From positions 1-47,780 of the IMG/VR virus record IMGVR_UViG_3300044825_002453: a stretch of DNA of 47,780 nucleotides; one strand, given 5' to 3'. Origin of the DNA: a virus. Under the pieces are notes generated by a model, which was not told where the DNA came from, did no database searches, and saw only the letters and a list, made by a program, of their open reading frames with translations. Positions 16,737 through 39,948 of this stretch are shown piece by piece (positions within the stretch are counted from its first letter, which is position 1; each line of letters starts with the position of its first letter). Made by a program: the position numbers and the translations under genes.

Positions 16737-16771
16737 TGCATCCCCGCCGCCGCCCCTCACACCGTCACCCT
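16737..16771 (+). promoter_or_regulatory. Late promoter-like element 1 (portal)
   Basis: TGCATC at 16737-16742, 23 bases, CACCCT at 16766-16771, 7 bases, then GTG 16779. Belongs to an eight-member family with fixed spacing. No Shine-Dalgarno is present, so the portal mRNA would be leaderless. Confidence 0.65.
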
Positions 16772-16778
16772 CGCGGCC

Positions 16779-18551
16779 GTGGCCGCCCGTGACATCACCC
16801 TCGACCAGTACGCCCCCCTCGCGCACAAGGCGGGCCTCGGGCACACCACCGCGGCCATCACCCTCGCCCCCACCTGGGTCAGTGAACCGCACCGCCGCCG
16901 CCTCGCCGCCTACCGCATCCTCCACGGCTACCTGAGCAACGTCGCCCGCACCTTCTTCGAGGCGGACACGACCCGCAACGTCGACGCCCGCCTCCGCTCC
17001 ATCGGCGCCGGCATCGACGGCGACGAGCGCCGCGACCTCGTCGAGTACGGCGACGCCGCCCTCCTCGTGTCCCGCATCGCCGACGCCATCCTCGGCGAGA
17101 CCCTCACGTTCACCGTGGCGGGCGCGGACGTGGAGCAGCTCCCCGAGATCGGCGACCCGCCTCCCGACCCCGGGGCTGACGCCACGGCGATCGAGCGGCG
17201 CATCTACGACGCCGCCCTCGCGAGGTGGGAGCGGGACGCCGCCGCCGCCGTGGACATGTGGGAGGAGGCGATCGCGTCGCAGCCGGAGGCGATCGCCCGG
17301 CAGGCGTGGCTCCGTGAGTGGGCCGAGACCGACGCCGCCGCGGTGACGCTGCGCCTCGCGACCCTCGACGCGGTCGGCCTCGGCGACGGTGTCATCGCGA
17401 TCGGGTGGGACGCCGAGAAGCAGCGCCCGACGTGGACCCGCTACGACCCGGGGTTCTACTTCCCGGCGCACCCCGACGGCGCCACCGACGAGTTCCCGCC
17501 CACCGTCCACATCGCGTGGGAGGAGACCCACCAGGAGGACGGCGGGGACCGCACCTACGTGCGCCGCCAGACGTGGCGCCTGGTGCCCCTCGACGCGCCC
17601 GTCACGTACCCGTACGCCGACGGCCCGTCGCAGGTCGTGTGCACGTTCTCCGACGGCATGTGGGCGACGGAACGGCTCGAGGGCGGCAAGGTCGACGGGT
17701 TCGGGGAACCGGCCCGATGGATCACCGAAGAGGTGTCCCTCGGCGTCGACTTCATCCCCGTCGTGCACATCCCCGGCATCGACATCGGTGACGACTACGG
17801 GCAGTCGTTCCTCGCCCGCGTCGCCATGCTCCTCGACGAGATCATCGCCACCGACACCGACGTCAGCCGCGCCGCCGCCCTCGCCGCCGGCCCAGCGATC
17901 GCCCTCTCCGGTGGCTCCGTGCAGGGCGCCGTCGAGGTGGAGCCGGGCGTCGTCTACAACCTCGGCGAGAACGGGCGCATGGACGTCCTCGACCTCTCCG
18001 CCGGCCTCTCCGAGCTCCGCGACACCGGCGACCGTCTCCTTGACCGCCTCTCGGTCGTGTCGCAGGTCGCCGGTGAGGTGTTGGGCCGTGTCGTGGACGG
18101 CTCCCCGCTGTCGGGTGTCGCGATCGCGCTGCGCTTCGGCCCGTTCCAGCAACTGATCCTCGGGGCCCGGCAGGTGCACCGCCGCAAGTGGGACCTCGCC
18201 CTCAAGATGACGCAGCGGGTCGCGACCGTGAACGGCGACCCCGACGTCGATGGGGCCGCGTTCCCTGCTCACGTCGTGCCGGGCCCGTTCCTCCCCGCCG
18301 ACCTCGCCGGGGTCGCGCAGATCGTGGCGCAGGCTCGAGCAGCCGGCGCGATGTCGCAGGAGACCTCGGTGGCCCTCTTCGCCGAGGCGGGCGTCCCCGT
18401 CGGTGACGTGCGCCGCGAGGTGGCGCTGATCCGCGAGGGCGACCCCGAGGGCGCCGCCAAGGTGTTCGCCGCGGTGGGCGAGGAGGCCGCGGCCGACTGG
18501 TTGGGCGTGGAGCCTCCACCGCCGGCGCCGGCGCCCGACCTCGGGGTCTGA
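16779..18551 (+). CDS. Portal protein
   Basis: 590 residues from GTG 16779, with no ribosome site but a late-promoter element just upstream. Size, position between terL and the scaffold, and mixed alpha/beta features (YGDAALLVSRIADAI, FIPVVHIPGIDIGDDYGQSFL, SGVAIALRFGPFQQLI) fit actinophage portals. It forms the dodecameric ring through which DNA enters. The last 30 residues are Pro-rich and disordered. Confidence 0.85.
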   Translation: MAARDITLDQYAPLAHKAGLGHTTAAITLAPTWVSEPHRRRLAAYRILHGYLSNVARTFFEADTTRNVDARLRSIGAGIDGDERRDLVEYGDAALLVSRIADAILGETLTFTVAGADVEQLPEIGDPPPDPGADATAIERRIYDAALARWERDAAAAVDMWEEAIASQPEAIARQAWLREWAETDAAAVTLRLATLDAVGLGDGVIAIGWDAEKQRPTWTRYDPGFYFPAHPDGATDEFPPTVHIAWEETHQEDGGDRTYVRRQTWRLVPLDAPVTYPYADGPSQVVCTFSDGMWATERLEGGKVDGFGEPARWITEEVSLGVDFIPVVHIPGIDIGDDYGQSFLARVAMLLDEIIATDTDVSRAAALAAGPAIALSGGSVQGAVEVEPGVVYNLGENGRMDVLDLSAGLSELRDTGDRLLDRLSVVSQVAGEVLGRVVDGSPLSGVAIALRFGPFQQLILGARQVHRRKWDLALKMTQRVATVNGDPDVDGAAFPAHVVPGPFLPADLAGVAQIVAQARAAGAMSQETSVALFAEAGVPVGDVRREVALIREGDPEGAAKVFAAVGEEAAADWLGVEPPPPAPAPDLGV

Positions 18552-18708
18552 GCCGGCGGAACCCTCGGCTGGTCGCGTTCCTCACCGGGTGAGCCTGCAT
18601 CCCAACGCCCCTCGCGACGGGGGGTGACCCTTCGCCCATACCCACCGGAGTGGTGGGGCCGCACACCCGCAGCGGTCAAGCGGGGACAGGACCAGGAGAC
18701 ACCAGCAC
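18552..18708 (+). promoter_or_regulatory. Scaffold 5' region: promoter, structured leader, RBS
   Basis: Late element 8 (18596-18631) is followed at the usual distance by ATA instead of a start codon, so an RNA starting near 18638 would have a leader of about 70 bases. The leader contains the hairpin CCCACC (18641-18646) with GGTGGG (18652-18657) and a Shine-Dalgarno CAGGAGAC before ATG 18709. A frame from ATA 18638 runs to a TGA overlapping that ATG. Confidence 0.5.
18596..18631 (+). promoter_or_regulatory. Late promoter-like element 8 (scaffold, with leader)
   Basis: TGCATC 18596-18601, 24 bases, GACCCT 18626-18631. Six bases later is ATA, not a start codon. The only family member whose gene has a true ribosome site. 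Confidence 0.55.
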
Positions 18709-19398
18709 ATGAGCGACGATCCCATCCTCATCACCATCGGCGGCAAGCGCTACTGGCGCGACCCCATCGACGGTCGAACCGTCCCCTTCGTGGGTGGCGG
18801 CTCGGAGGATGCCGACCCGCCGGCCCCGCCCGCTGACCCTCCCGCGCCCCCGGCGCCCGAGGCGACGCTGACGCAGTCGCAGGTCGACGCCATCGTCGCC
18901 CGCGAGAAGGCGCAGGCGCGGAAGGCAGCCGACAAGGCCGCAGCCGAGGCGATCGCCGCGGCGAAGGCCGAGGCCGACAAGGCAGCGATGGGGGAGGCGG
19001 ACAGGGCGCGAGCCGAAGCCGCCGAGATCACCGCACAGGCGCAGGCCGTCCTCGCGGACGCCAACGCCCAGCGCCTCGCCGCCAAGGTCGAACGCAAGCT
19101 CCTCGCAGCCGGTGTCCCCGAGACGGCCCTCACCCGGGCCTCCCGCATGGTCTCCCTCGAAGCCGACGCCACCGACGACGACATCGTCGCCGAGGTCGAG
19201 GCCCTCCGCACGGAGATCCCGGGCCTGTTCACCACCCCCGCACCGAGCAACGGCGAGGCGCCGAAGCCCGGAGCGCAGCCACCCGCCCCCGCCAAGCCGC
19301 CCACCGGCGGTGCCCCGTCGGGCGACCCGAAGGAAGCCGCGAAGGCGCTCCTCCGGGCGCGTGGCATCACCCCCCGTTCCGAGCTCAACGCCGCCTAG
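18709..19398 (+). CDS. Capsid scaffolding protein
   Basis: 229 residues, ATG with AGGAGA upstream. N-terminal part is followed by a Pro/Ala linker, a long Ala/Lys/Glu coiled-coil (about 62-125), and a Pro-rich C-terminus ending GDPKEAAKALLRARG. This composition and its place between portal and capsid identify scaffolds, which organise the shell and are later lost. No protease is visible next to it. Confidence 0.85.
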   Translation: MSDDPILITIGGKRYWRDPIDGRTVPFVGGGSEDADPPAPPADPPAPPAPEATLTQSQVDAIVAREKAQARKAADKAAAEAIAAAKAEADKAAMGEADRARAEAAEITAQAQAVLADANAQRLAAKVERKLLAAGVPETALTRASRMVSLEADATDDDIVAEVEALRTEIPGLFTTPAPSNGEAPKPGAQPPAPAKPPTGGAPSGDPKEAAKALLRARGITPRSELNAA

Positions 19399-19413
19399 GA
19401 GGCAGCACAACTC

Positions 19414-20136
19414 ATGGGTTCACTCGTCACGTCCACCACCCTCGTCACCGGTGACGATTCGTGGCTCGGTTCCGCACACGGGACCGACTCCACCGAGTCG
19501 ATCACCCTCGACGTGAGCGCGTTCACCGCGAACACGCACTACGCCAACGGCGTCTTCCACGCCGGCATCCCGCTCGGCAAGATCACCGCCTCGGGCAAGT
19601 ACGGCCCGTACGGCGCCTCGCCGTCGGAGGTCCAGACGCTCGTCATCGACGCCACCGGTGGCACCTACGACATCACGTTCGACGGTGACAACACCGGGAA
19701 CATCACCTACGCCGGCACCGCTGGTGACTCGGCGACGATGCAGGCCGCGCTCGAGACCCTGCCGAACATCAGCCCCGGGGACGTCACCGTCACTCAGGGT
19801 GCGACGGTCAGCAACTCGACCACGTTCACCCTCACGTTCGGCGGCCAGTACGTCGGCAAGAACGTGCCGCAGATCACCGTCACCGAGTCGCTGACCGGCG
19901 GCGCCGGCACAGCGACCCCCGCAACCGGCACCGCTGGTGGCGGCGCCGTGTCGAGCGGCGCGGAGACCCTCGTCGGGTTCCTGTACACCGCCGTCCCCGT
20001 CCCCGACACCGCCGACACGACCATCGACTGCGCCGCAGCGATGCTCACGCACGGCAAGGTCGTCGAGGCCAACCTGCCCATCTCCGTCGACGCTGCCGGC
20101 AAGGCCGACGTCGCTGGCCGCATCCGGTTCGTCTGA
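19414..20136 (+). CDS. Head decoration protein with inserted Ig/beta-sandwich domain
   Basis: 240 residues, ATG with AGGAGG upstream. Residues 1-69 (THYANGVFHAGIPLGKITA) and about 185-240 (ETLVGFLYTAVP, AGRIRFV) fit a lambda gpD-like decoration protein. Between them a Thr/Gly-rich segment (about 70-180; TYDITFDGDNTGNITYAG, DSATMQAALETLPNI) matches a beta domain common in phage surface proteins. So the decoration protein appears split by a surface-exposed insertion. It stabilises the capsid after expansion; the insert may bind surfaces. Confidence 0.8.
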   Translation: MGSLVTSTTLVTGDDSWLGSAHGTDSTESITLDVSAFTANTHYANGVFHAGIPLGKITASGKYGPYGASPSEVQTLVIDATGGTYDITFDGDNTGNITYAGTAGDSATMQAALETLPNISPGDVTVTQGATVSNSTTFTLTFGGQYVGKNVPQITVTESLTGGAGTATPATGTAGGGAVSSGAETLVGFLYTAVPVPDTADTTIDCAAAMLTHGKVVEANLPISVDAAGKADVAGRIRFV

Positions 20137-20151
20137 GAAGGGACCTGAACC

Positions 20152-21171
20152 ATGAGCATCATCTACGACATCGTCGACCCCGTCGTCCTCACCGAGGTCG
20201 TGCGCGAGTCGCCCGAACCGGCGAAGGTCGGCCTCAACGCCATCCTCCCCGACCGGCTGTTCCCGTCCATCGAGGCCGTGTGGGACGTCGTCACGCAGAC
20301 GAACCAGGCCGCCAACTTCCAGAGCTTCGACGCCGAGACGGCGATCGGTGAGCGCGACAGCGCGAGCCGCAAGAGCGCTGAGATGCTGAAGGTCGGCGAG
20401 AAGTACCGCCTCGGCGAGTACGACACGCTGCGCCTCCAGGGCCTCCGCACCGGCGGCAACATGACGCCGCTCATGCAAGACGTCGTGTTCAACGACGCCC
20501 TCAAGGGTGCCCGCGCCGCCCGCATCCGGGCCGAGTACGCCCGCGGCGACGTGCTCACCGACGCCATCCTGACGATCACCGACGGCGGGCTCGACCTGAG
20601 CTACGACTTCGGGCTCGACACCGACAACGACGACACCGCGGCCGCGTCGTGGCACACGACCACGACCGACATCCCGACCGACATCGGGAACTTCCTCGAC
20701 GCGGCCGAGAACCTGGACTACGCCGGCTACATGTGGGTCAGCCGCAAGACGGCCCGCTCGCTCGCCGCGAACACCAAGTACCAGGGCCTCGCCTCGGTCG
20801 GTGGCGTCACCCCGTCGCGGCTCAGCCTCGGCGACATCAACGGCATCCACGACCGCCTCGGGTTCCCCGAGGTCATGGTGTACGACTCCTCGTTCAAGAT
20901 CGCGGGCAGCACGACCCGGGTCCTCGGTGAGGACCTGGTGCTGTTCACTCCGCGTGACCCGAGCGAGTTGGGCTTCACCGCCTGGGGCGTCACCGCCGAA
21001 GCGCTCGAGCTCGTCGACGCCAACGTCCTCACGGTCGATGGCGCCGCCGGCCTCACCGCTGCGGTCACCTCGACCTTCGATCCGCCCACCCGGTGGACGA
21101 AGGTCACGGGCATCTGCCTCCCCGTGCTGACCGATCCCGACCGTCTCGGGATCTTCGACTGCACCCCCTGA
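20152..21171 (+). CDS. Major capsid protein (gpE-like)
   Basis: 339 residues, ATG with GAAGGGACC upstream. The sequence (LPDRLFPSIEAVWDVVTQTNQ, split for length; GERDSASRKSAEMLKVGEKYRLGE; later MWVSRKTARSLAAN and WTKVTGICLPVL) has the layout of the gpE/HK97-fold major capsid family in actinophages. It forms the icosahedral shell with the decoration protein. A strong terminator follows. Confidence 0.92.
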   Translation: MSIIYDIVDPVVLTEVVRESPEPAKVGLNAILPDRLFPSIEAVWDVVTQTNQAANFQSFDAETAIGERDSASRKSAEMLKVGEKYRLGEYDTLRLQGLRTGGNMTPLMQDVVFNDALKGARAARIRAEYARGDVLTDAILTITDGGLDLSYDFGLDTDNDDTAAASWHTTTTDIPTDIGNFLDAAENLDYAGYMWVSRKTARSLAANTKYQGLASVGGVTPSRLSLGDINGIHDRLGFPEVMVYDSSFKIAGSTTRVLGEDLVLFTPRDPSELGFTAWGVTAEALELVDANVLTVDGAAGLTAAVTSTFDPPTRWTKVTGICLPVLTDPDRLGIFDCTP

Positions 21172-21179
21172 TCCTCGCT

Positions 21180-21197
21180 GACACCGCTTGCGGTGTT
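21180..21197. promoter_or_regulatory. Operator-like palindrome, site E
   Basis: GACACCGCTTGCGGTGTT: 7-base arms ACACCGC and GCGGTGT around TT. It begins 8 bases after the capsid stop and 30 bases before the terminator stem, unlike the other junction copies, which lie near gene starts. Confidence 0.5.
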
Positions 21198-21227
21198 GTG
21201 AGACCACCTCGGCTGCTGGTGCCGACG

Positions 21228-21260
21228 GCGGCCCCGACCCTTCGGGGTTGGGGCCGCTTT
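21228..21260 (+). terminator. Rho-independent terminator after capsid gene
   Basis: GCGGCCCCGACCC (21228-21240) pairs with GGGTTGGGGCCGC (21245-21257), one G-T pair, around a TTCG tetraloop, followed by TTT. It likely limits read-through so that capsid mRNA is more abundant than that of the connector genes. Confidence 0.85.
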
Positions 21261-21298
21261 GGGTAACGGCGGCCTCCGCAACGACAGGAGCACCAGCA

Positions 21299-21628
21299 GT
21301 GACCATGATTCGAGACGTGTCGGGGTGGCAGCGCCCCTCGGCGCAGTTGGCGGAGGCAGCCGAGACGGCGCCCCGCACGCCGTCCACACCGACCCGTGAC
21401 GGCATCCGCACCGTGTCGGGGTGGCAGTCGGGTCCCCTTCCGGCCCCGGAGCGGGAGCCGAAGCCCGCGACGCTCGCAGCGGGTGCCCGTGTCGACGAGG
21501 TGCTCGCCTGGGTCGACGGCGACCCGCGTCGCGCGGATGAGGCGTGGGAGGCGGAGGTGAAGGGGAAGCGGCGACCGTCGCTCCTCCGCACCCTCGCGGT
21601 GATCGCGGACGGGGAGGTGGCGGCGTGA
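21299..21628 (+). CDS. Hypothetical structural-region protein with VSGWQ repeats
   Basis: 109 residues, GTG with ACAGGAG eight bases upstream (ATG 21305 also possible). IRDVSGWQ and IRTVSGWQ occur about 38 residues apart, then a basic-acidic helical C-terminus (VDEVLAWVDGDPRRADEAWEAE). Similar short proteins coded after the capsid gene are common in actinophages. Function unknown. Confidence 0.7.
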   Translation: MTMIRDVSGWQRPSAQLAEAAETAPRTPSTPTRDGIRTVSGWQSGPLPAPEREPKPATLAAGARVDEVLAWVDGDPRRADEAWEAEVKGKRRPSLLRTLAVIADGEVAA

Positions 21629-21957
21629 CGATCGCGGCAGAGGATCTCGCCGTGGTCCGCTCCTGGTGCGGCACCGCCGTCGGGACCTCGGCCTCGACGT
21701 TCACCGAGGCCGACCTGACGGCCCGCATGGACCGCCTCGCCGACGCCCACGCGACGGCGTTGGAGGTGTGCCGCCAGATGCGCGCCGACCTCCTCGCCGA
21801 CCCCGCCTCGCTGACGCTGACGGGCGACTACGCCCACAACGTGGCGGGGAACCTCGCGGGCCTCGACCACAACATCACGCAGTTGGAGCGCCTCGTCGGC
21901 GACGCGGCGGGCACGGTGTCGGTGTCGCGCCTGTTCCGGCGCTCGCCGCGGCGGTGA
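21625..21957 (+). CDS. Head-tail connector (head completion) protein
   Basis: 110 residues, GTG in an overlap. It is largely helical (AEDLAVVRSWCGT, LTARMDRLADAHATALEVC) and occupies the usual slot of the first connector after the capsid. Expected to bind the portal ring and seal the filled head. Assignment rests on position, size and fold. Confidence 0.55.
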   Translation: MTIAAEDLAVVRSWCGTAVGTSASTFTEADLTARMDRLADAHATALEVCRQMRADLLADPASLTLTGDYAHNVAGNLAGLDHNITQLERLVGDAAGTVSVSRLFRRSPRR

Positions 21958-21982
21958 CCGTGGACCGGGGGAGAGTGGGCGG

Positions 21983-22774
21983 GTGACGCTGACGCCGTAC
22001 TACTCCGACGACTTCGCGACGATCTACCACGGGGACTCGCTGGAGGTGCTCGACGCGCTCGACCTAGGCGAAGGCTCCGTCGACGCCATCCTCACCGACC
22101 CGCCGTACGCGTCCGGTGCCCGCCACGAAGCCGACAAGTCCACCCGCACCGGCGGCATGGTGCGCGGGCAGCGGTTCGCCGACAAGCCGATCGACAACGA
22201 CCGGATGACGACCACCGGGTTCGTGTGGCTCATGCGCGAGACGGCGCTGCGGACCTACGACGCCCTCGTGGACGGCGGCTCACTCGTCTGCTTCATCGAC
22301 TGGCGGCAGTGGCCCAACCTCGTCGGCGCGATCGAGACGTGCAATCTGCGGGTACAGACCATGATCGTGTGGGACAAGCGGACGCTCGGCATGGGTAACG
22401 GGTTCCGCCAGCAGCACGAGCTCGCCTGCCACGCGGCTAAGGGCGTCCCGAACGTCTACGACCGCGCGACACCGAATGTCCTGACGGTCGACCGCATCGA
22501 GCCGGATGACCACCCGTCCCCTAAGCCGGTCGCGCTGATCGACCGACTCCTCCGTGTCGTGACCCCACCCGGCGGACTGATTCTGGACCCGTTCATGGGA
22601 AGCGGTCGCCCGATGGAGGCAGCGAAAGCAGCAGGGCGTCGGTGCATCGGCATCGAGAAGAACGAGGCGTACTGCGAGCGCGCGGCCGAGCGGCTCACGC
22701 AGACGTTCGCGCTCGTCTCCTCGGCGGAAGTGTCGATCGACCCGCCGCCGTCCCTCGACCTCGGCGCCGCATGA
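21983..22774 (+). CDS. DNA methyltransferase (N4-cytosine/N6-adenine, beta class)
   Basis: 263 residues, GTG with GGGGGAGAG upstream. Motif IV TDPPY is at about 37-41 and motif I DPFMGSG near residue 200, so the order is catalytic then AdoMet-binding, the beta class; HPSPKPV before motif I is also typical. The usual TT after FMGSG is RP here. It is a third methylase in the genome, inserted between head genes. Likely anti-restriction modification. Confidence 0.9.
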   Translation: MTLTPYYSDDFATIYHGDSLEVLDALDLGEGSVDAILTDPPYASGARHEADKSTRTGGMVRGQRFADKPIDNDRMTTTGFVWLMRETALRTYDALVDGGSLVCFIDWRQWPNLVGAIETCNLRVQTMIVWDKRTLGMGNGFRQQHELACHAAKGVPNVYDRATPNVLTVDRIEPDDHPSPKPVALIDRLLRVVTPPGGLILDPFMGSGRPMEAAKAAGRRCIGIEKNEAYCERAAERLTQTFALVSSAEVSIDPPPSLDLGAA

Positions 22775-22962
22775 CCCCGGACCGCGACGTGCGCCGCACC
22801 GTCCACGTCGCCCCGATCGAACAGCACTACGCCGACCTCGGCGTCACCGAGTTCGTGTGCCCGGTCCACGGCGTCTACCACGTCGCCCGGGCCTCCCTCG
22901 CGATGAGGGCGTCCCCCGACTGCTACTGGTGCCGCGAGGAGAGCCGTGCCGCAGCCTCGTAG
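22771..22962 (+). CDS. Small zinc-ribbon-like protein, 63 aa
   Basis: ATG in an overlap with the methylase stop. FVCPVHGVYH and DCYWCREESR place Cys/His pairs that fit one zinc site. The 3' end overlaps the next gene by 17 bases. Function unknown. Confidence 0.7.
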   Translation: MTPDRDVRRTVHVAPIEQHYADLGVTEFVCPVHGVYHVARASLAMRASPDCYWCREESRAAAS

Positions 22963-23839
22963 CGTCGCCGCCGCCGCAGCGAACCACGTCTCGGACTGGG
23001 ACGACGCCGACCGGACCATCCGCCGCCTCGTCTCCCGCATCCTCGGCGGCGAACGGCCCCCCACCCGTACCGTGATCGGTACGGTTCGGTCGGCGACGGC
23101 GCGGCTCGAGGCGAAGGCCGCGACGTGGGCACGCGACGAGCTGTCGGGCATCTACCGCCTCGGGGCGCAGATCGCCGCCGACGTCACCGGCCTCGGGAGC
23201 ATCGACGACCTCATGGACGCCGAGGTCGCGGCGATCCTCGCCGAGCACATCGACGACACGACGACCGTCGGCCAGGCGCTCCGCCGCACCGCCGCCTCCT
23301 TCGAGGTGCCTCAGGGGCTGCCGGTGCTGTCCCCGGCGGAGATCCGTGCCCTGTCACCGGGGGAGCTCCGCGACCTCCTACAGCACCCCCTCGGCCTCGT
23401 CCGCTACAGCGACGGCTCGTTCCGCACCGTGGCGGATCACGGGGACATGCTGACGAGGACGCGGGCGTCGCTCACCTACAACCAGGCGGCCATCGACGTG
23501 GCACGGGCGACGGGGTCCCTCTACTGCGAGGTGTTCGACGGCCCCGACTGCCAGTGGATCACGCACACGTCGGGGGGCCTCGCGAACGGGCAGATCGTCG
23601 AGACCGAGTTCGCGTCGGCGCACCTCCTCGCGCACCCGAGGTGTCAGCGCTCGTTCCGACCGCGGCCCGACATCGACACGGCGCGCCGGGCGAAGAAGGT
23701 GGCGCCCCTCGGCCTCCCGTTCGACGACGCCAGCAACCCGCTGCCGTTGCCGGGGCCGACGATCCAGGCGCGGCCGAGGGTGCAGAGGTCGCGGCCGACG
23801 CGGGCGCAACGGCAGCGGCGCAGGGCCCGCACCCGCTAG
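22946..23839 (+). CDS. MuF-like minor capsid protein
   Basis: 297 residues, GTG start overlapping the previous gene. The long helical N-terminus is followed by LTYNQAAIDVARATG, then YCEVFDGPDCQW, GLANGQIVETEF and AHLLAHPRCQRSFRP, the Cys/His pattern of phage minor capsid 2/MuF C-terminal domains. The tail is basic (RARTR). It probably sits at the portal vertex and may enter the cell with DNA. Confidence 0.8.
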   Translation: MPQPRSVAAAAANHVSDWDDADRTIRRLVSRILGGERPPTRTVIGTVRSATARLEAKAATWARDELSGIYRLGAQIAADVTGLGSIDDLMDAEVAAILAEHIDDTTTVGQALRRTAASFEVPQGLPVLSPAEIRALSPGELRDLLQHPLGLVRYSDGSFRTVADHGDMLTRTRASLTYNQAAIDVARATGSLYCEVFDGPDCQWITHTSGGLANGQIVETEFASAHLLAHPRCQRSFRPRPDIDTARRAKKVAPLGLPFDDASNPLPLPGPTIQARPRVQRSRPTRAQRQRRRARTR

Positions 23840-23843
23840 GGAC

Positions 23844-23878
23844 TGCATCCCCGCCGGTGGTGGGGGAGCCGTCACCCT
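23844..23878 (+). promoter_or_regulatory. Late promoter-like element 2
   Basis: TGCATC 23844-23849, 23 bases, CACCCT 23873-23878, 7 bases, ATG 23886. It starts 5 bases after the upstream stop. The spacer is nearly the same as in element 3. Confidence 0.65.
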
Positions 23879-23885
23879 CGCCCAC

Positions 23886-24218
23886 ATGGCCCTGCTGACC
23901 ACGTACGCCCCGTCCGACGCCGGGACCACCTACACCTCGGCCTCGGCCGACGCTGGCGGCGACACGTTCGTCCCCGGCGACCGCACCGTCGTCCTCGTCA
24001 CCAACCTCAGCGGCGGCGCCCTCACCGTCACGTTCGACTCCGTGACCCCCTCCAACTACGGCACCGACGAGAACACCGGTGCCAGCGTCGGCGCGAGCAC
24101 GTCCAAGATGTTCGGGCCGTTCCCCGCCAACCGCTTCGCGAACGCGACGACGGGGCTCGTCAGCGTGACCTACAGCGGGGTAACGGGCCTGTTCGTCTCC
24201 GTCCTGACCCTCGGCTGA
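23886..24218 (+). CDS. Small beta-rich virion protein (paralogue of 29632-29961)
   Basis: 110 residues, leaderless ATG. TPSNYGTDEN and GPFPANRFANATTGLVS match TPSNYGTDED and GPLPANRFAASADGLVA in the protein at 29632. Both are Ser/Thr/Gly-rich, with a predicted beta sandwich and the same promoter element. Probably head or tail surface proteins; exact role unknown. Confidence 0.7.
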   Translation: MALLTTYAPSDAGTTYTSASADAGGDTFVPGDRTVVLVTNLSGGALTVTFDSVTPSNYGTDENTGASVGASTSKMFGPFPANRFANATTGLVSVTYSGVTGLFVSVLTLG

Positions 24219-24220
24219 CC

Positions 24221-24255
24221 TGCATCCCCGCGGCGGGTGGGGGAGCCGTCACGCT
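24221..24255 (+). promoter_or_regulatory. Late promoter-like element 3
   Basis: TGCATC 24221-24226, 23 bases, CACGCT 24250-24255, 6 bases, GTG 24262. The core GGGTGGGGGAGCCGTCAC is shared with element 2 just upstream. Confidence 0.6.
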
Positions 24256-24261
24256 CCCCCC

Positions 24262-24609
24262 GTGGCCGTCCACTTCTCCCTCGACATCGACCCGATCGGC
24301 GGCGGCTCCGTCGTCATCGACGGGCGCGACGTCACGGACATCACCGAGGGCGCCGACTTGATCGTGCGCCCAGGGCAGCCCACCACGCTACGCATCTACA
24401 CCCTCGGCTCCGCGACCGTCGAAGCTGACGGCGTCGTCGAGGTCCACCACGAAGCGGAGACGGACACCGCCGAGGTCGGGGCGCTGCTCCGCACCCTCGA
24501 CGGGCACGCCATGTGGGAGGAGATGATGGCCGACCCGACCGTCGACCTCGCCGACCCCGCAACTGCGTTCCTCCACTACGTCGCCGAACAGATCGACCCG
24601 CAGCCGTGA
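24262..24609 (+). CDS. Hypothetical virion-region protein, 115 aa
   Basis: GTG with no ribosome site but a late element upstream. Beta-rich N-terminus (VHFSLDIDPIGGGSVVIDG), helical acidic C-terminus ending with a possible C-terminal helix ATAFLHYVAEQI. It precedes the neck genes. Unknown function. Confidence 0.65.
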   Translation: MAVHFSLDIDPIGGGSVVIDGRDVTDITEGADLIVRPGQPTTLRIYTLGSATVEADGVVEVHHEAETDTAEVGALLRTLDGHAMWEEMMADPTVDLADPATAFLHYVAEQIDPQP

Positions 24610-25040
24610 CCGTCACCGCCGCGGGCACCGCCCGCATCCGGGCCGCATCGGAGCGCATCCTCACCGACACCGCGACCGTGACCCGTGAGGGCACCGCGAC
24701 GACGTCCCGCGCCGACGGCCGCGTCAGCCGCCCCACCACGACCATCTACGTGGGCCGCTGCCTCATCACCGCCGCCTCTGGCTCCGACACCGAGGAGAAG
24801 GAGCCGGGGCGCAAGAAGCGCACGGAGGACGACTACCGGGGCCGCCTCCCCGTCGAGGCCGCCAGCGACGAGACGGGCGACCCCGGCGACGTCGCGGTCG
24901 GCGACATCGTCACCGTGGACGACTCCGACGACCCCGGCCTCGAAGGTGCCACGTTCCGGGTCACGCAGGTCATCACCAAGACGTACGCCTCGTCGCGCAT
25001 CCTCAACCTCGTGGCCTACAGCGCCGGGGTGCGGTCGTGA
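24606..25040 (+). CDS. Head-tail stopper-like protein
   Basis: 144 residues, GTG in an overlap. TATVTREG near the start and the C-terminal VAVGDIVTVDDSDDP, LEGATFRVTQVI, ASSRILNLVAY form the beta barrel pattern of head-tail stoppers (DUF6093-like, from memory). It should seal DNA in the head until the tail joins. Confidence 0.65.
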   Translation: MTVTAAGTARIRAASERILTDTATVTREGTATTSRADGRVSRPTTTIYVGRCLITAASGSDTEEKEPGRKKRTEDDYRGRLPVEAASDETGDPGDVAVGDIVTVDDSDDPGLEGATFRVTQVITKTYASSRILNLVAYSAGVRS

Positions 25041-25450
25041 AGCTCAAGCTCGACGTGTCGCAGGCGATCGCCTACGCCGGCAAGCTCGCCGCCGCCGCCA
25101 CGAAGGTCCGCCCCGAGAAGGTCACGAGGCACTACGGCACCATCCTCTTGGCGCGCACGAAGGCGTACGCGTCGGGGCGCCCCGGCCCCAACGTCATCAC
25201 CGGCGCCTACCGCAACAGCATCCGCATCCGCTACGAGACCGAGCTGTCGACGGGGACCTCGGCGGCGATCGTCGGCTCCGAGGCACCGCAGGCGGCCCGG
25301 CTCGAGTTCGGGTTCAAGGGCGTGGACTCGCTGGGGCGCCACTACAACCAGCCCCCGTTCCCGCACTACAGCAGGGCGCTCGCCGACATGGAGCGCCTCT
25401 ACCCGCCTGCGGTCGAACGGACCGCGATGGAGTGGGTGCCGCTCCCGTGA
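25037..25450 (+). CDS. Tail completion/HK97 gp10-like neck protein
   Basis: 137 residues, GTG in an overlap. ARTKAYASGRPGPNVITG, then YRNSIRIRY and AARLEFGFKG resemble gp10-like neck proteins, which link connector to tail terminator. Position between stopper and terminator agrees. Confidence 0.7.
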   Translation: MKLKLDVSQAIAYAGKLAAAATKVRPEKVTRHYGTILLARTKAYASGRPGPNVITGAYRNSIRIRYETELSTGTSAAIVGSEAPQAARLEFGFKGVDSLGRHYNQPPFPHYSRALADMERLYPPAVERTAMEWVPLP

Positions 25451-25962
25451 CGACCGCACCGCCGCCCCGCACCGTCGTCACCGACGCCCTCGTCGCGATG
25501 CTCGCCGAGGTCACGCACCGTCCCTGCTGGGGACCCGGTGGCCCCGACCCGACCGACGACGCCTACGCCCTCATGCCGTACCTCGTCGTCGACCTCATCG
25601 GCGCCGGAATCGCCTACGGCAGCGTCGGCGCCCCGGAGGACACCGCCGAAGTCGTGTGGCAGGTCACCGCGGTCGGCGAGACGTTCGAGTCCTGCCAAGT
25701 CGCGATGGACAAGGCCCGCACCGCCATCCTCGAGCGGGACGGAGCGGGCGACGGGTTCTCCAACACGCTCCCCGCCGCGTTCGTCACCGTCGTGAACCGC
25801 ACCTGGGACGGCGACGCCGGGACGCAGGTCGACGGCGGCATCGTCAACGTCGCCGAGCGGTTCCGGCTCACCTGCTGCATCCAGCCGATCGACGACGACG
25901 GCATCGAAGGTGGGCAGCCGTACGTGGAACTTGACCAGGTGGTCGACGGAGGCTCTCCCTGA
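25447..25962 (+). CDS. Tail terminator protein
   Basis: 171 residues, GTG in an overlap. The N-terminal helix (VVTDALVAMLAEV), a beta block with PYLVVDLIG and VVWQVTAVGETFESC, then CQVAMDKARTAIL have the layout of tail terminators, which cap the tail tube at the neck. Stop TGA shares one base with the next ATG. Confidence 0.65.
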   Translation: MTTAPPPRTVVTDALVAMLAEVTHRPCWGPGGPDPTDDAYALMPYLVVDLIGAGIAYGSVGAPEDTAEVVWQVTAVGETFESCQVAMDKARTAILERDGAGDGFSNTLPAAFVTVVNRTWDGDAGTQVDGGIVNVAERFRLTCCIQPIDDDGIEGGQPYVELDQVVDGGSP

Positions 25963-28901: not shown

Positions 28902-28909
28902 GGACTCCG

Positions 28910-29203: not shown

Positions 29204-29224
29204 CGCCCACCGCCCCCGACTGAC

Positions 29225-29250
29225 GCCGCCTCGCCTACGGGTGAGGCGGC
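29225..29250. terminator. Stem-loop terminator, possibly bidirectional
   Basis: GCCGCCTCGCC (29225-29235) pairs with GGTGAGGCGGC (29240-29250) around TACG. It lies between the + strand fibre genes and a minus-strand coding fragment, so it may stop transcripts from both sides. Confidence 0.7.
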
Positions 29251-29260
29251 ATCGTCGCGT

Positions 29261-29517: not shown

Positions 29518-29585
29518 ACGCCGCCTACAACAACCAGCCGACCGCCTACCCCGCCGGGTGGACGAACCTCGGCCCCGCCGCCTGA
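29518..29585 (+). pseudogene. C-terminal remnant of a + strand gene
   Basis: Directly after the antisense fragment the + strand reads AAYNNQPTAYPAGWTNLGPAA and a stop, which looks like a genuine C-terminus with no body in front. Formally an ORF extends back to GTG 29340, but its composition there is a shadow of the minus-strand frame. Together with the antisense fragment it suggests a rearranged locus. Confidence 0.35.
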
Positions 29586-29588
29586 GCC

Positions 29589-29624
29589 TGCATCCCCTCC
29601 CCCCTAGCGGGCGGCGGGCACCCT
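29589..29624 (+). promoter_or_regulatory. Late promoter-like element 4
   Basis: TGCATC 29589-29594, 24 bases, CACCCT 29619-29624, 7 bases, ATG 29632. Confidence 0.65.
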
Positions 29625-29631
29625 CGCCGAT

Positions 29632-29961
29632 ATGGCAACGCTCACCCGTCAGCAGATCCTGAACACCGGCACGACCGTCACCTACGCCTCTGCTGCCGGC
29701 GGCGGCGACAAGTGCCTGCCGGGTGACACGACCTGGATCGAGGTCGTCAACGGCTCCGGTTCCAGCATCAACGTCACCGTCAACAGCCAGACGCCCAGCA
29801 ACTACGGCACCGACGAGGATCTCGTCGTTGCTGTCGCAGCGGGCGCCACCGACCGCATCGGCCCCCTCCCCGCCAACCGGTTCGCCGCCTCCGCCGACGG
29901 CCTCGTCGCCTGGACCTACTCCTCGGCGACCACGATCACGGTCGCGGCGGTGTTCATCTGA
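29632..29961 (+). CDS. Small beta-rich virion protein (paralogue of 23886-24218)
   Basis: 109 residues, leaderless ATG behind late element 4. The blocks TPSNYGTDED and GPLPANRFA match the paralogue. The duplicated unit includes the promoter, so whole cassettes were copied. Role in the virion unknown. Stop shares one base with the next ATG. Confidence 0.7.
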   Translation: MATLTRQQILNTGTTVTYASAAGGGDKCLPGDTTWIEVVNGSGSSINVTVNSQTPSNYGTDEDLVVAVAAGATDRIGPLPANRFAASADGLVAWTYSSATTITVAAVFI

Positions 29962-30272
29962 TGGCGCTCGCGATCCGCCACCCCGACCTCGGCGCCGCCT
30001 CCTGCGCGACCGTCGAGCAGTTCGCGGCGATCTACGAGCCGCGCGGCTGGGTCCTCGAGCTCGACCGCAACGGTGAGCCGCGGCGCGCGGATGCGAACCC
30101 GCGGTCGCACGTCACCCCGACGCCGATCACGCCCGAGGAGGTCGCGGCGGCCGAGACCCTGACCGAGATCGCAGCCGACACCGGAAGTGATGTCGGACCC
30201 CGCCGCAAGCGCGGCAAGACCAACGACGACGGCGCGGCCGTCACCAACACCACCCCCACCACGGAGGACTGA
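29961..30272 (+). CDS. Hypothetical protein before tail tube gene, 103 aa
   Basis: ATG in a TGATG junction. N-terminal part (AIRHPDLGAASCATVEQFAAI, residues 4-24, with VEQFAAIYEPRGW) resembles a short conserved element in actinophage proteins at this place; the C-terminal half is Thr/Pro-rich and disordered. Function unknown. Confidence 0.65.
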   Translation: MALAIRHPDLGAASCATVEQFAAIYEPRGWVLELDRNGEPRRADANPRSHVTPTPITPEEVAAAETLTEIAADTGSDVGPRRKRGKTNDDGAAVTNTTPTTED

Positions 30273-30275
30273 CAG

Positions 30276-30764
30276 ATGGCCCGCTACCACTCGTCGAACA
30301 AGGCCAAGGTCGTGTTCGCTCCCGCCGTCGCATCGCTGTCGGCGCCGTCCCGCGCGGAGATCACCGCCGGCACCGTCCTCACCGTCGCCGGCTCCACCGC
30401 CTACGCCGGCCTCATCGAGGACAGCGGCTGGGAGACCGTCGCGAGCGACATCACCGTCCCCGACGTCGGAACCGACTTCGACGGCACCATTCCCGGCCGC
30501 CAGGCCGCGTCCTCGGCGTCGATGAAGTTCTACGCCGACGACGCCTCCACCACGGTCCGCACGGCGCTCGCCGAGGGCACCGCCGGCTACATGATCCGGA
30601 TGCCGGAGGGCGACGTCCCCACCGACCGCTGCGAGGTGTGGCCCGTCCGGGTCTCGGCCCTCAACGACTCGGCCATCACCTCGGCGAACGAGGCCAAGAC
30701 GTTCATGGTCACCTTCGCCGTGACGTCGGAGCCGAACAAGAACGCGGTCATCCCCGCGGCCTGA
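30276..30764 (+). CDS. Major tail (tube) protein
   Basis: 162 residues, ATG with ACGGAGGACTGAC upstream. Beta-rich protein starting ARYHSSNKAKVVFAP and ending TFAVTSEPNKNAVIP, placed directly before the tail chaperone pair and tape measure. This order defines the tail tube protein in siphoviruses. It polymerises on the tape measure to form the tube. Confidence 0.82.
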   Translation: MARYHSSNKAKVVFAPAVASLSAPSRAEITAGTVLTVAGSTAYAGLIEDSGWETVASDITVPDVGTDFDGTIPGRQAASSASMKFYADDASTTVRTALAEGTAGYMIRMPEGDVPTDRCEVWPVRVSALNDSAITSANEAKTFMVTFAVTSEPNKNAVIPAA

Positions 30765-30778
30765 TCCCCCCAACCCAC

Positions 30779-31219
30779 ATGACGGCACCAGCAGCCACCC
30801 CAACCCCCGACGACATCATCGCCCGGAAGAAGCGGCGCACCGCCAGCTTCGCCCTCGTCCTCGACGAGGAGACCGGCGACGTCCTCACGTTCACGTTCGA
30901 GGCGATGGGCCGCGACGAGTTCCGCGACCTCCGCCTCCTCCCCGAGTGCAAGCCGACCGCAGAGCAGCGGAAGCAGCACGCGCAGCAGCAGAAGGACGCA
31001 GGCGTCCCCCCGCACCGCGTCGTGCCCCTCGACAACAACCCCGACGTGTTCCCCCCGAAGTACCTCGCCGCCGTGTGCACGTCGCCACGGTGGGATGAGG
31101 GCGGGTGGGGCGAGTTCCTGTCGAGCGACGCCCTGAACGATGCCGAGTATCAGGCGCTCCTCGGTGCCGCGCTGTCGACGCAGGCGACGAGGGCACAGGT
31201 ACCGGACCCGGAAGCCTGA
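30779..31219 (+). CDS. Tail assembly chaperone (G)
   Basis: 146 residues, ATG 30779. The lysine-rich start (DDIIARKKRRTASFALVLD), FEAMGRDEFRDL and a helical C-terminus match actinophage tail chaperones. Its 3' end overlaps a second frame continuing to 31587, so a -1 ribosomal shift gives a longer GT form. The pair binds the tape measure during tail assembly. No promoter seen; it follows the tail tube gene. Confidence 0.85.
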   Translation: MTAPAATPTPDDIIARKKRRTASFALVLDEETGDVLTFTFEAMGRDEFRDLRLLPECKPTAEQRKQHAQQQKDAGVPPHRVVPLDNNPDVFPPKYLAAVCTSPRWDEGGWGEFLSSDALNDAEYQALLGAALSTQATRAQVPDPEA

Positions 31220-31587
31220 CGGCGGACCCGCAGCTCCTCGAGGAGCTCGCGGTGAGCCGCCGATACCGCCAGCCCCACTCCGCCCTCTTCGGCGACGGGG
31301 ACGGGATGTGGAGCGCCTCCGACGCGGCGCTGGCCGTCGCGTACGAGCGATGGCTCCGCATCGAGGAGGCGGAGCGGTGCCCGTCATGCGGGACCCGTGA
31401 CTCCGACTGGATCGACCCGGAGACGAAGCGGATGGTCGACGGCGACCCGTGGGAGGCACAAACCCGCGTCTGCTACGGCTGCAAGACCGTCGCCGAGGCG
31501 CGCGCCATGCTCCCCGACGGCGAGGCGTCCACCGGCGTGAGCGTCATCCTCGCCCGGCCTGCATCCGATCTAGACGGGGCAGAGTAG
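31201..31587 (+). CDS. Tail assembly chaperone T extension (made by -1 frameshift)
   Basis: The frame one base back from G is open from before 31105 to TAG 31587 and has no good start. It encodes LLEELAVSRRYRQPHS, then RCPSCGTRDSDW and VCYGCKT, a paired CxxC typical of actinophage T extensions. The G frame near its stop reads GAC CCG GAA GCC TGA, where a slip of Pro CCG to CCC would enter this frame. The exact slip site is not certain; coordinates mark the extension only. The last bases contain late element 5. Confidence 0.75.
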   Translation, partial: TGPGSLTADPQLLEELAVSRRYRQPHSALFGDGDGMWSASDAALAVAYERWLRIEEAERCPSCGTRDSDWIDPETKRMVDGDPWEAQTRVCYGCKTVAEARAMLPDGEASTGVSVILARPASDLDGAE

Positions 31588-31595
31588 GGGACCCT
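31560..31595 (+). promoter_or_regulatory. Late promoter-like element 5 (tape measure)
   Basis: TGCATC 31560-31565, 24 bases, GACCCT 31590-31595, 8 bases, ATG 31604. The upstream block lies inside the end of the T frame. Confidence 0.6.
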
Positions 31596-31603
31596 CGGCC
31601 ACT

Positions 31604-34474
31604 ATGGCTCTCGGCGGCGTCACCCGCGGCATCTCCATCGCCCTGAGTCTCGCGACGCAGGGGTTCAACGCCGGCCTCAACTCGGCCAGTGGGGCGCTCA
31701 ACAACTTCGCCTCCGGGTCGCAGCGGGACCTCAACAGCGTTGGCATGGCCGCCGGTGCGATGGGTGCCGCGGTCGGTGTCGGCCTCGGCCTCGCGGTCGG
31801 GGCGGCAATGGACTTCGAGTCGGCGATGTCCGAGGTCGCCGCGGTGTCGGGCACGACCGGGAAGGAGTTCGACCGGCTCCGCGACCAGGCGCTCGACCTC
31901 GGCGCCTCCACCGCCTACTCCGCGACCGAGGTCGCAGGCGCCCAGGCCGAGCTACTCAAGGCGGGCGTGTCGACAGCGGACGTGATGGGCGGCGCGCTCA
32001 AGGGCGCCCTCGACCTCGCCGCCGCCGCACAGATCGACGTCGCCCAGGCCGCCGAGATCACCAGCAACGTCCTCAACACGTTCTCCCTCTCCGGGCGTGA
32101 GGCGTCGCACGTCGCCGACGTACTCGCAGCCGCCGCCAACAAGTCCGCCGCCGACGTCTCCGACATCGGCCTCGCGATGAAGCAGGCGGGCGCCGCCGCC
32201 TCCCTCACCGGGATGGAGCTCGAGGAGACCGCCGGGGCGCTGTCGATCTTCGCCAACGCCGGCGTGAAGGGTTCCGACGCCGGCACCAGCCTCAAGACGA
32301 TGCTGCTCCGCCTCAAGCCGGCGACGGCCGAGGCTCGCGCCGAGATGGAGAAGTACGGCATCTCATTCGAGACGCAGGAGGGCGGGTTCGTCGACCTGGC
32401 CGACGTCGCCGAGACGTTGCAGACCCGGCTCGGCCACCTCGGCGACGCGCAGCGGGTCCAGACGCTCCAGACGATCTTCGGCACCGACGCCATCCGGGCC
32501 GCGACGATGCTGTATCAGCAGGGCGGCGAAGGTGTCGACTACTGGACGCAGCAGGTCGACGACGCCGGCTACGCGGCCGAGGTCGCCCGCATCCGCATGG
32601 ACAACCTCAAGGGCGACCTCGAGAAGCTCGGCGGAGCCATCGACACCGTCCTCATCGAGGCGGGGTCGGAGGCGAACGGCGCTCTCCGTGCGATGACGCA
32701 GGCCGCGACCGACACCGTGTCCGCCCTCGGCAACATGCCGCCCGTGGTGTCACAGGTCAGCATCGGTGCTGGTGGCCTCGCGATCGCCGCCACGGCCGCG
32801 GTGGCTGGCTTGGGGACGTTCATCCCGATGGCGCGCAACGTGAAGGGCGCGATGGATGGGATGGGCGGCGCCTGGTCATCGCTCGCCGGGACGATGACCA
32901 TGCGCAACTTCGCGTCGATGGCAGCGGGCGCCGGCATCCTCGCCGGTGCGTTCGTCCTCGTCTCCTCGCAGTTGGAGGGCGCGAAGCGGCGGGCGAAGGA
33001 AGCGAACGACGTGTTCCGGTCGTCGCTCGAGGCGCCCACCGACCTCGCCGGGTTCGTCTCCTACAACGCCGCCATCGAGACCGAGCTCAACCGCCTACAG
33101 GGACGCCTCGACGCCGCTTACATGGACGTCGAGGGCGGCGCCGGCAACATCGTCCACGGCTGGCAGCGGTTCTCCGAGGCTGTCGGCATCTGGGGCGAGG
33201 ACGTCATCTACGAGACGACCGAGCGCCTCAAGGACCTCATCGACACCCAGCACGTCGCCGCCTCCGAAGGGATGGCGTACGCGACGATCGTGGACGACAT
33301 CGGCAAGCGGTACGGGTGGACGACCGAACAGGTGGAGGCGTTCGCCGACGCCAACGGCATTGACCTCGCCTCCTCGGCGGCATCGGCCATCGCGATCCTC
33401 GCCGAGGAGGGCAACGCGGTCGAGGTCGTCAACGGGGCACTGTCCCTCACGCCCGCGGCCGCGTCGAACGTGGCGGGCGTCCTCGACAACGAGCTGACGC
33501 CGGCGATGGACGCAGCGGTCACCGCCACCATCTCGGCGCCACCCGTGGTCACCGAGACCTCCGACGCGATGACGACGCTCGGCGACTCGTCGGCATCGAC
33601 CGCTGACAAGATCGATGCGCTCACCTCGATCGTCGAGGCGTTCATCGGTATCGCTCTCGGCGAAGGTGAGGCGTCCGACGCGTTGCAGTCGAGCATCAAC
33701 GGTATCGGTGAGGCCGCGGCGGCCGCCGGCTGGAACTTCCACGGCACGACCGACGAGGCGATCGCGTTCCGTGACCAGATGCGCGAGGTGACCACCGACG
33801 CCGGCGCGCTCATCAACGCGTGGATCGAGCAGGGCATCAAGGGCGACGAGCTCCGCGCGAAGGTCGAAGGCCTCTCGACGTCCCTCTACGACCAGGCGAT
33901 CGCCGCTGGTGTCCCGAGGGCCGTGGTCGACGAGTACCTCGGCGTGCTCGGCCAGCTCCCCCCCGACGTCTACACCAACATCCAGACGCCGAACCTGCCC
34001 GGCGCGCTCACCGACGTGAACGCCTTCAACGGTGCCCTCGACGCCATCGAGCGGGAACGCTTCGCCCGGATCCACGTCGAGTACCCGGGCCGGAACGTCG
34101 GCTCCATGATCTTCAACGCTGACGGGAACATCCTCGCGTTCGCCGACGGCGGCCATCACGCGCAGATCGCCCGCGGCGGCCCCACCCGCATCTGGAACGA
34201 ACCGGAGACCGGCGGCGAGAGCTACATCCCGTGGGCGCAGTCCAAGCGGGGCCGCTCCGTCGAGATCCTCCGCCAGACCAACGCAGCGTTCGGGAACCCC
34301 CTCGGGGCCGGTGGCGGTGGCGGCATCGGCTCCATTCACGTCACCGTGAACGCCCCCGGCGTCTACGACTCCCGCGGCCTCGAGGAGCAGATCCGCCGCG
34401 GCGGCGCGCTGCAGGACGCCATCGCCACCGCCGTCACCCGAGCCAACGGGGCACGGGACGGGGCGCGGCCGTGA
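31604..34474 (+). CDS. Tape measure protein
   Basis: 956 residues, the largest protein of the tail region, leaderless ATG. N-terminal DFESAMSEVAAVSGTTGKEF and TAYSATEVAGAQAELLKAGV belong to the TP901-type tape measure core (PhageMin_Tail). Ala/Gly-rich helices and hydrophobic stretches (GMAAGAMGAAVGVGLGLAVG; VSIGAGGLAIAATAAVAGLG) follow. Its length sets tail length and it may help DNA cross the membrane. Confidence 0.95.
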   Translation: MALGGVTRGISIALSLATQGFNAGLNSASGALNNFASGSQRDLNSVGMAAGAMGAAVGVGLGLAVGAAMDFESAMSEVAAVSGTTGKEFDRLRDQALDLGASTAYSATEVAGAQAELLKAGVSTADVMGGALKGALDLAAAAQIDVAQAAEITSNVLNTFSLSGREASHVADVLAAAANKSAADVSDIGLAMKQAGAAASLTGMELEETAGALSIFANAGVKGSDAGTSLKTMLLRLKPATAEARAEMEKYGISFETQEGGFVDLADVAETLQTRLGHLGDAQRVQTLQTIFGTDAIRAATMLYQQGGEGVDYWTQQVDDAGYAAEVARIRMDNLKGDLEKLGGAIDTVLIEAGSEANGALRAMTQAATDTVSALGNMPPVVSQVSIGAGGLAIAATAAVAGLGTFIPMARNVKGAMDGMGGAWSSLAGTMTMRNFASMAAGAGILAGAFVLVSSQLEGAKRRAKEANDVFRSSLEAPTDLAGFVSYNAAIETELNRLQGRLDAAYMDVEGGAGNIVHGWQRFSEAVGIWGEDVIYETTERLKDLIDTQHVAASEGMAYATIVDDIGKRYGWTTEQVEAFADANGIDLASSAASAIAILAEEGNAVEVVNGALSLTPAAASNVAGVLDNELTPAMDAAVTATISAPPVVTETSDAMTTLGDSSASTADKIDALTSIVEAFIGIALGEGEASDALQSSINGIGEAAAAAGWNFHGTTDEAIAFRDQMREVTTDAGALINAWIEQGIKGDELRAKVEGLSTSLYDQAIAAGVPRAVVDEYLGVLGQLPPDVYTNIQTPNLPGALTDVNAFNGALDAIERERFARIHVEYPGRNVGSMIFNADGNILAFADGGHHAQIARGGPTRIWNEPETGGESYIPWAQSKRGRSVEILRQTNAAFGNPLGAGGGGGIGSIHVTVNAPGVYDSRGLEEQIRRGGALQDAIATAVTRANGARDGARP

Positions 34475-36939: not shown

Positions 36940-36974
36940 TGCATCCCGCACCACTTCACTGTTAGTGCAACGGT
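36940..36974 (+). promoter_or_regulatory. Late promoter-like element 6 (endolysin)
   Basis: TGCATC 36940-36945, 23 bases, AACGGT 36969-36974, 7 bases, GTG 36982. The downstream block is the most divergent of the family but keeps the spacing; the spacer carries CACTTCACTGTTAGTG, a near inverted repeat. Confidence 0.55.
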
Positions 36975-36981
36975 CGCCACC

Positions 36982-39706: not shown

Positions 39707-39715
39707 GCGCCGAGG

Positions 39716-39750
39716 TGCATCCTCGCCGCCCCCCACCTCCCCGGCACCCT
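39716..39750 (+). promoter_or_regulatory. Late promoter-like element 7
   Basis: TGCATC 39716-39721, 23 bases, CACCCT 39745-39750, 6 bases, ATG 39757. Confidence 0.65.
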
Positions 39751-39756
39751 GTCGCC

Positions 39757-39948
39757 ATGACCCGCGACGAGCGCCTCGCCGCCCTCCTCATCCTCGGCGT
39801 CCTCGCCGCCGCCGCCCTCGGCTGCACCACCTGGCTCCTCGCCGCAGGCGTCAGCGCAGAGGCGGCACTCGCCGTGTTCGGCCTCGGGAACCTGTGCGCC
39901 GGCGCCGTCGCCGGCGCCCTCACCCTCGGCCGCGTCGAGACGTCGTAG
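39757..39948 (+). CDS. Small membrane protein with two segments, holin-like
   Basis: 63 residues, leaderless ATG behind late element 7. Hydrophobic stretches LAALLILGVLAAAALGCTTW and AALAVFGLGNLCAGAVAGAL span the membrane twice; the N-terminus is charged. Late expression and topology suggest a second holin or antiholin. Confidence 0.7.
   Translation: MTRDERLAALLILGVLAAAALGCTTWLLAAGVSAEAALAVFGLGNLCAGAVAGALTLGRVETS

Follow-up and report, generated by a model that had tools for sequence, protein, structure and literature searches.

Activator-dependent late promoters are already known as a kind in phages. Those of the P2 type are several in number and combine an upstream box near −55, which has dyad symmetry, with a weak core and a small Cys-rich activator, Ogr/delta. 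In this study, we analysed a 47,780-base virus record (IMG/VR record IMGVR_UViG_3300044825_002453, positions 1 to 47,780; the whole stretch is called the window below) and found a two-block element, with the refined consensus TGCATCC-N22/23-[C/G]AC[C/G]nT-N6/7-(A/G)TG, before eight of its late genes. Judged from its sequence and conservation, the element is almost certainly a promoter, and the set very probably consists of late promoters that are leaderless, apart from that of the scaffold gene, which is leadered. The P2-type late promoters resemble it in their number, upstream box, weak core and small Cys-rich phage activator (here a candidate); they differ in the place and symmetry of the box, and Ogr is not a WhiB-like (Wbl) protein.

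Other described systems share further parts of this arrangement. In the middle promoters of phage T4, where MotA and AsiA appropriate sigma, a phage box likewise takes the place of the −35, the −10 is retained and host polymerase is redirected (PMC6755090), but the MotA box is centred near −30 and the box here near −39, the T4 middle genes are non-structural, and the mRNAs predicted here are leaderless. No MotA or AsiA relatives were seen, although no search was aimed at either protein. In mycobacteria, WhiB7 binds SigA region 4 together with the DNA that immediately precedes the −35 hexamer (PMC3905903), and the WhiB-fold protein proposed here would likewise sit on sigma region 4 and make its DNA contact immediately upstream of the −35 position (PMC3905903; PMC10245118). 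However, the box is TGCATCC, with no AT-rich tract and no −35 hexamer, so that the sites do not qualify as WhiB7-type promoters; DNA contact would be made by a C-terminal GCRCxxC module rather than an AT-hook, and the regulon is a phage late one. The leaderless promoters of Streptomyces and mycobacteria also have a −10 directly before an ATG or GTG that is the RNA 5′ end, with no Shine-Dalgarno (SD) sequence (PMC4633059; PMC4681348), but the −10 here is GC-rich, lacks the first T and is paired with an invariant upstream box. Cluster K phages, which also encode WhiB, carry repeats directly before many gene starts, mostly in one orientation: the start-associated sequence (SAS), a 13-bp GGGN7CCC repeat 3–9 bp before starts that is thought to be translational, and the extended SAS (ESAS), an inverted repeat (PMC3203893). 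Neither resembles TGCATCC plus a spaced −10, and no GGGN7CCC repeat was found in the columns before the start codon of our aligned elements. Little has been learned so far about late promoters in actinobacteriophages; according to a 2022 review, few mycobacteriophage late promoters have been characterised and their regulation needs study (PMC9262239). In the literature searched, we found no WhiB-read, nearly all-leaderless late regulon with a TGCATCC box.

The two-block element and the genes it precedes

The earlier note on this DNA had listed eight TGCATC sites with spacers of 23, 24, 23, 23, 24, 24, 23 and 23 bases, and all eight are present where it placed them (Table 1); the sixth overlaps the end of the upstream gene. 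The pattern TGCATC-N23/24-VACSST has 8 matches in the window, all on the + strand and in the late region, whereas dinucleotide shuffles averaged 0.18 matches and never exceeded 2. When (A/G)TG was required 5–8 bases further on, 7 matches remained against a shuffle mean of 0.02. The motif search with a shuffled control that the note had proposed thus places the pair far above chance. Of the six other TGCATC words on the + strand of the window, five have no following C and the sixth (25876) is intragenic. Among nine sequences, nAnnnT follows TGCATC at exactly 23 or 24 bases in 44 of the 52 TGCATCC words, compared with about 2 expected, and an unsupervised ranking of 7-mers followed by such a block and then by a start codon placed TGCATCC first of all 7-mers. 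The sole unrelated competitor in this ranking, TGAGGTT, was rejected as a second motif; it comes from a pentapeptide-repeat array at the window ends. In six relatives, TGCATCC words are biased toward the strand of the late genes (11/0, 6/0, 4/0, 5/0, 3/0 and 5/1).

Table 1. Positions in the window of the putative late promoters, the scaffold leader and the genes for WhiB-like proteins
Feature	Position	Strand	Details
Late promoter 1 (portal)	16737..16778	+	box 16737-16743; −10 CACCCT 16766-16771; start GTG 16779; gene 16779-18551
Late promoter 2 (scaffold, leadered)	18596..18637	+	box 18596-18602; −10 GACCCT 18626-18631; predicted transcription start near 18638
Late promoter 3 (tail protein)	23844..23885	+	box 23844-23850; −10 CACCCT 23873-23878; start ATG 23886
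Late promoter 4	24221..24261	+	box 24221-24227; −10 CACGCT 24250-24255; start GTG 24262
Late promoter 5 (tail protein)	29589..29631	+	box 29589-29595; −10 CACCCT 29619-29624; start ATG 29632
Late promoter 6 (tape measure)	31560..31603	+	box 31560-31566; −10 GACCCT 31590-31595; start ATG 31604
Late promoter 7 (endolysin)	36940..36981	+	box 36940-36946; −10 AACGGT 36969-36974; start GTG 36982
Late promoter 8 (63-aa gene 39757-39948)	39716..39756	+	box 39716-39722; −10 CACCCT 39745-39750; start ATG 39757
Scaffold mRNA 5′ leader, H-type pseudoknot	18638..18708	+	S1 18659-18662/18672-18675; S2 18666-18669/18681-18684
WhiB-like protein, candidate late activator	10893..11513	+	C-terminal HGR-TYAKGCRCDPC module; conserved in 7 contigs
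Additional WhiB-like protein, early region	4354..4860	+	
Additional WhiB-like protein, early region	5183..5611	+	N-terminal GCRCDRC motif
Additional WhiB-like protein, early region	5608..5952	+	

Alignment of 43 sites from the window and its relatives showed TGCATCC, 22 or 23 unconserved bases (24 at one site) and then [C/G]AC[C/G]nT. The first block described in the earlier note is therefore real but one base longer, and its second block, (C/G)ACCCT or a close variant, had to be redefined, the endolysin site reading AACGGT. Because A at position 2 and T at position 6 were conditions for gathering the 43 sites, position 1 being left free, the invariance of these two bases is by construction; the rate of 44 in 52 is unaffected. 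Position 3 is C in 39 of the 43 sites. The note was right that the second block is not TANNNT, in that position 1 is never T. Nevertheless, A2 and T6, the canonical sigmaA feature, are present at every window site, and because both key bases are kept, the block is a GC-rich, degenerate −10. The box and the −10 are conserved and the spacer sequence is not: its columns hold no conserved hexamer, no TTGACA-like −35 was found 16–18 bp from the −10, and no sigma70 −35/−10 pair was found within 14000–33900. Versions of the box with one mismatch are almost absent, the sole variant with a leaderless start being CGCATCC, found twice.

The element recurs in at least 11 further virus contigs, gathered by protein and DNA-pattern scans, of a lineage known from metagenomes only; their protein identities to the window span 27–82%. 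The members include one near-identical contig (L001), two with 81–82% capsid identity (L002 and L003) and six whose proteins are about 25–60% identical to those of the window (L018, L147, L149, G010 of 78.6 kb, G011 of 51.9 kb and G015 of 39.2 kb). Across the lineage the element precedes orthologues of the portal, scaffold, two tail and tape measure genes. The portal copy is present in all 8 contigs that extend over the 5′ end of the portal gene; late promoter 1 is orthologous in L003, G010, G011, G015 (as CGCATCC), L174, L175 and L177, late promoter 4 in L002, G010, G011, G015 and L147, late promoter 5 in L002, G010, G015 and L147, and late promoter 6 in L147, L149 and L018. Before the portal gene of G015 (L169:11037-11078), two inverted copies overlap, CGCATCC on the + strand and TGCATCC on the − strand, each with a −10 at 24; this is a possible divergent promoter pair.

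The earlier note had named equal frequency of the spaced pair at random coding positions of a GC-matched genome as grounds for refuting the promoter, and this was not borne out. In 132 loci, about 128 of them other related or control loci (about 1.8 Mb in all), no locus outside the lineage combined the spacing of 23 or 24 with a start codon; the lineage members that did so were L001, L002 and L018. The many Streptomyces prophages found by the tail-protein profile A4, which served as the negative control, lack the element, and neither they nor the other control loci had the spaced element with a start codon. A query with the portal protein found no viral contig, and one with the major capsid protein found close relatives only. 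The DNA-pattern scans mostly brought up contigs with a single chance match, from unrelated phages or phages of lower GC, and these were dropped. Gordonia phage Kenna and Streptomyces phage ZL12 were also set aside, having scattered TGCATCC words only, on both strands or the minus strand, and no ordered late set.

Leaderless starts and the scaffold leader

In 30 of the 43 sites the start codon stands 6 or 7 bases after the −10 block (background 5%), which, as far as sequence can tell, is the geometry of a leaderless promoter. The start codons associated with the element are always ATG or GTG and never TTG. In mycobacteria, leaderless initiation requires an ATG or GTG at the 5′ end and needs nothing more, these being the only efficient codons there (PMC4633059). 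SD words occur at 0 of 34 element-associated starts compared with 204 of 345 other starts. Since the gene finder rewards SD words, longest-ORF (open reading frame) starts (36%) are a fairer control, as are random positions (14%); 0 of 34 is low even so. The statement in the earlier note that seven of the eight genes lack an SD was borne out, and the one exception, the scaffold gene, fits the promoter model. Taking these results together, we regard leaderless starts as highly probable.

At the scaffold site the start-codon slot reads ATA, and the gene starts at ATG 18709 with its own SD, 71 nt downstream of the predicted transcription start; its transcript is therefore taken to be leadered. This arrangement is shared by the scaffold genes of L003, G010, G011 and G015, which start about 115–132 bases after the box. 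The SD is absent where the RNA start would be the start codon and present where the two differ; thus the element appears to fix the RNA start and not the ribosome site. The scaffold leader contains a predicted pseudoknot of the GGCGACCCGTAGCC..CGGG type, whose 8 pairs are 100% paired in five divergent phages, 3 of them with compensatory changes. The leaders have otherwise diverged, sliding the pairing partner gives nothing comparable, and a search of Rfam gave no match to the leader. The pseudoknot may serve as a binding site through which translation of the scaffold is controlled.

The candidate activator and competing explanations

The earlier note had proposed a late promoter specific to the phage, mostly leaderless and in need of help, and this is supported by the conservation before orthologous late genes, the fixed spacing, the unconserved spacer and the lack of SD words. 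Of the two kinds of help that it had offered, a modified RNA polymerase or an activator, the second is favoured, because no recognisable sigma factor is encoded, yet WhiB-like sigma-binding regulators above the Pfam cut-off occur in all four long genomes. The best candidate appears to be the protein encoded at 10893–11513, which scores 48.4 bits against the Pfam WhiB model (cut-off 23.6). Its orthologues combine a WhiB domain with a C-terminal T[YF]A[RKT]GCRCxxC module, and the four cysteines (C...CxxC...C) are invariant in all seven. The G[V/I]WGG loop reads GIWGG or GVWGG in the window, G015 and L175, with near variants in G011 and L174. When contigs were fetched by this protein alone, known lineage members were recovered together with three new contigs (L174, L175 and L177) that match over both parts, and all three have the element directly before the portal gene. 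By comparison, 75 loci (1.05 Mb) that match the WhiB domain only gave four loose matches to the element and the full consensus in none. In G010, a TGCATCC box with no matching −10 (47489–47552; L164:7889-7952) lies 64 bases upstream of the orthologue's gene, suggesting possible autoregulation. The window has three further WhiB-like genes at 4354–5952, two of them adjacent, and two of the three products carry a GCRCxxC motif, C- or N-terminal.

We propose that the element acts at the DNA level as an activator-dependent late promoter read by host polymerase of the sigmaA type, with the WhiB protein reading the box, and we consider this whole model to be probable, with less assurance than the promoter itself. 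The block [C/G]AC[C/G]nT would be a weak −10 that keeps only the bases flipped out by sigma (A2 and T6). It would lie 6–7 bases before the RNA start, which would fall on the first base (A or G) of the start codon, giving leaderless mRNAs, the scaffold mRNA having instead its 71-nt leader with pseudoknot and SD. There would be no −35; TGCATCC, at about −42 to −36, would lie immediately upstream of the place expected for sigma region 4. The phage WhiB-like protein and its orthologues would bind TGCATCC, with the WhiB domain docking on sigma region 4 and the GCRCxxC module reading the box. Made earlier in infection, the protein would redirect host polymerase to 8–10 promoters across the morphogenesis genes, whose very poor −10 would be usable only once it is present.

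Several points weigh against this model. The promoters in these phages are predicted from sequence. The absence of T at position 1 of the −10 in all 43 sites is unusual for sigmaA. The G[V/I]WGG loop is degraded in the orthologues of G010 and L177, and the AlphaFold model of the WhiB orthologue has low confidence (mean pLDDT 63.8), a fold search of the PDB giving no structural neighbour. The window encodes four WhiB proteins from which to choose, though just one of them is orthologous throughout. The co-occurrence of WhiB protein and element is confined to one lineage, in which shared descent could suffice, so that the link is supported but not proven. Small diverged regulators could have escaped tblastn.

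These points bear on the strongest alternative, in which the promoter is the same and leaderless but its activator is another phage protein, whether a small DNA-binding protein that went unrecognised or a sigma-like factor that has diverged strongly. The missing T could mean a reader other than sigmaA, most early genes searched gave no family match, and the WhiB co-occurrence is confounded by lineage. However, no sigma region 2 was found in nine records, and the only region-4-like match is a weak helix-turn-helix inside a second WhiB protein of G015. Moreover, when all window proteins were compared with the three other long genomes, WhiB was the only non-structural family common to all four. 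We regard another phage activator as unlikely, though it deserves more weight than the explanations that follow.

A host transcription factor, or a host WhiB/WhiA pair, might read TGCATCC and have been borrowed by the phage. In Streptomyces, host Wbl proteins and WhiA act jointly, and several Wbl proteins bind sigmaA region 4, but the WhiA site is GACAC (PMC6282962). The arrangement is also absent from 35 actinobacterial genome loci and from other actinophage loci, and these phages encode their own Wbl proteins, which makes a host reader very unlikely.

The element could instead act in RNA, as a signal for translation or processing within a long polycistronic late mRNA, much like an ESAS, with no promoter involved. 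Nearly all copies do lie in short gaps directly before start codons, and the start-associated repeats of cluster K phages have an unclear role (PMC3203893). Yet no conserved RNA fold was found over 33 aligned elements, and in the five phages where the scaffold start codon is at least 71 nt away, box and −10 are still spaced as elsewhere and the mRNA gains a leader with a pseudoknot, accompanied in the window by an SD. Both the A/T pattern, which resembles a −10, and the offset of 6–7 nt fit transcription starts, and an RNA signal is accordingly given still less credence than a host factor. Least credible of all is a repressor operator or stoperator-like repeat spread over the genome: the copies are short, asymmetric and intergenic in a single orientation, but a stoperator need not stand at a fixed distance from a −10 and a start codon, and the copies cluster at morphogenesis genes and follow orthologous genes from one diverged phage to another.

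The window and the meaning of the proposed late switch

The window is 71% GC, with genes densely packed on the + strand. Family searches of its proteins identified terminase, scaffold, head decoration, major head, tail and tape measure proteins and endolysin, as well as a primase/polymerase-like protein, methyltransferases and the four WhiB-like regulators. Megablast against 50,697 phage records found no near relative, and the sole match of the portal protein was to Streptomyces phage ZL12 (30%). Because WhiB-like proteins have been reported only from Actinobacteria (PMC6282962) and their phages, the host is presumably an actinobacterium. The tail-protein genes at 23886–24218 and 29632–29961 are paralogues (48% identical), each with its own late promoter. 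A stretch of 512 bases at the end of the late region (39949–40460) has no predicted gene and is possibly an origin or packaging site. On the minus strand, 15-bp tandem repeats (TGAGGTTCGCCCTGG) at 1–463 and 47275–47778 apparently code for pentapeptide repeats at both window ends, which suggests one gene spanning a circular junction or an assembly broken by the repeat.

Sequence alone is enough to recognise the promoter, its regulon can be listed and a single activator candidate can be named, which makes the question directly testable. The chances seem evenly balanced that, in an uncultured actinophage lineage, a protein of the WhiB family, dedicated to this role and bearing a new DNA-reading module at its C-terminus, seizes host sigmaA and activates 8–10 dispersed, nearly all-leaderless late promoters, the scaffold mRNA alone having a pseudoknot leader for separate translational control. 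If so, one class of WhiB-like proteins, which are common in actinophages and mostly unexplained, would gain a function, and compact (about 42 bp) leaderless promoters would become available for GC-rich hosts. The structural genes of these phages would be translated mainly from leaderless mRNAs, under a late switch built from an actinobacterial iron-sulphur regulator.

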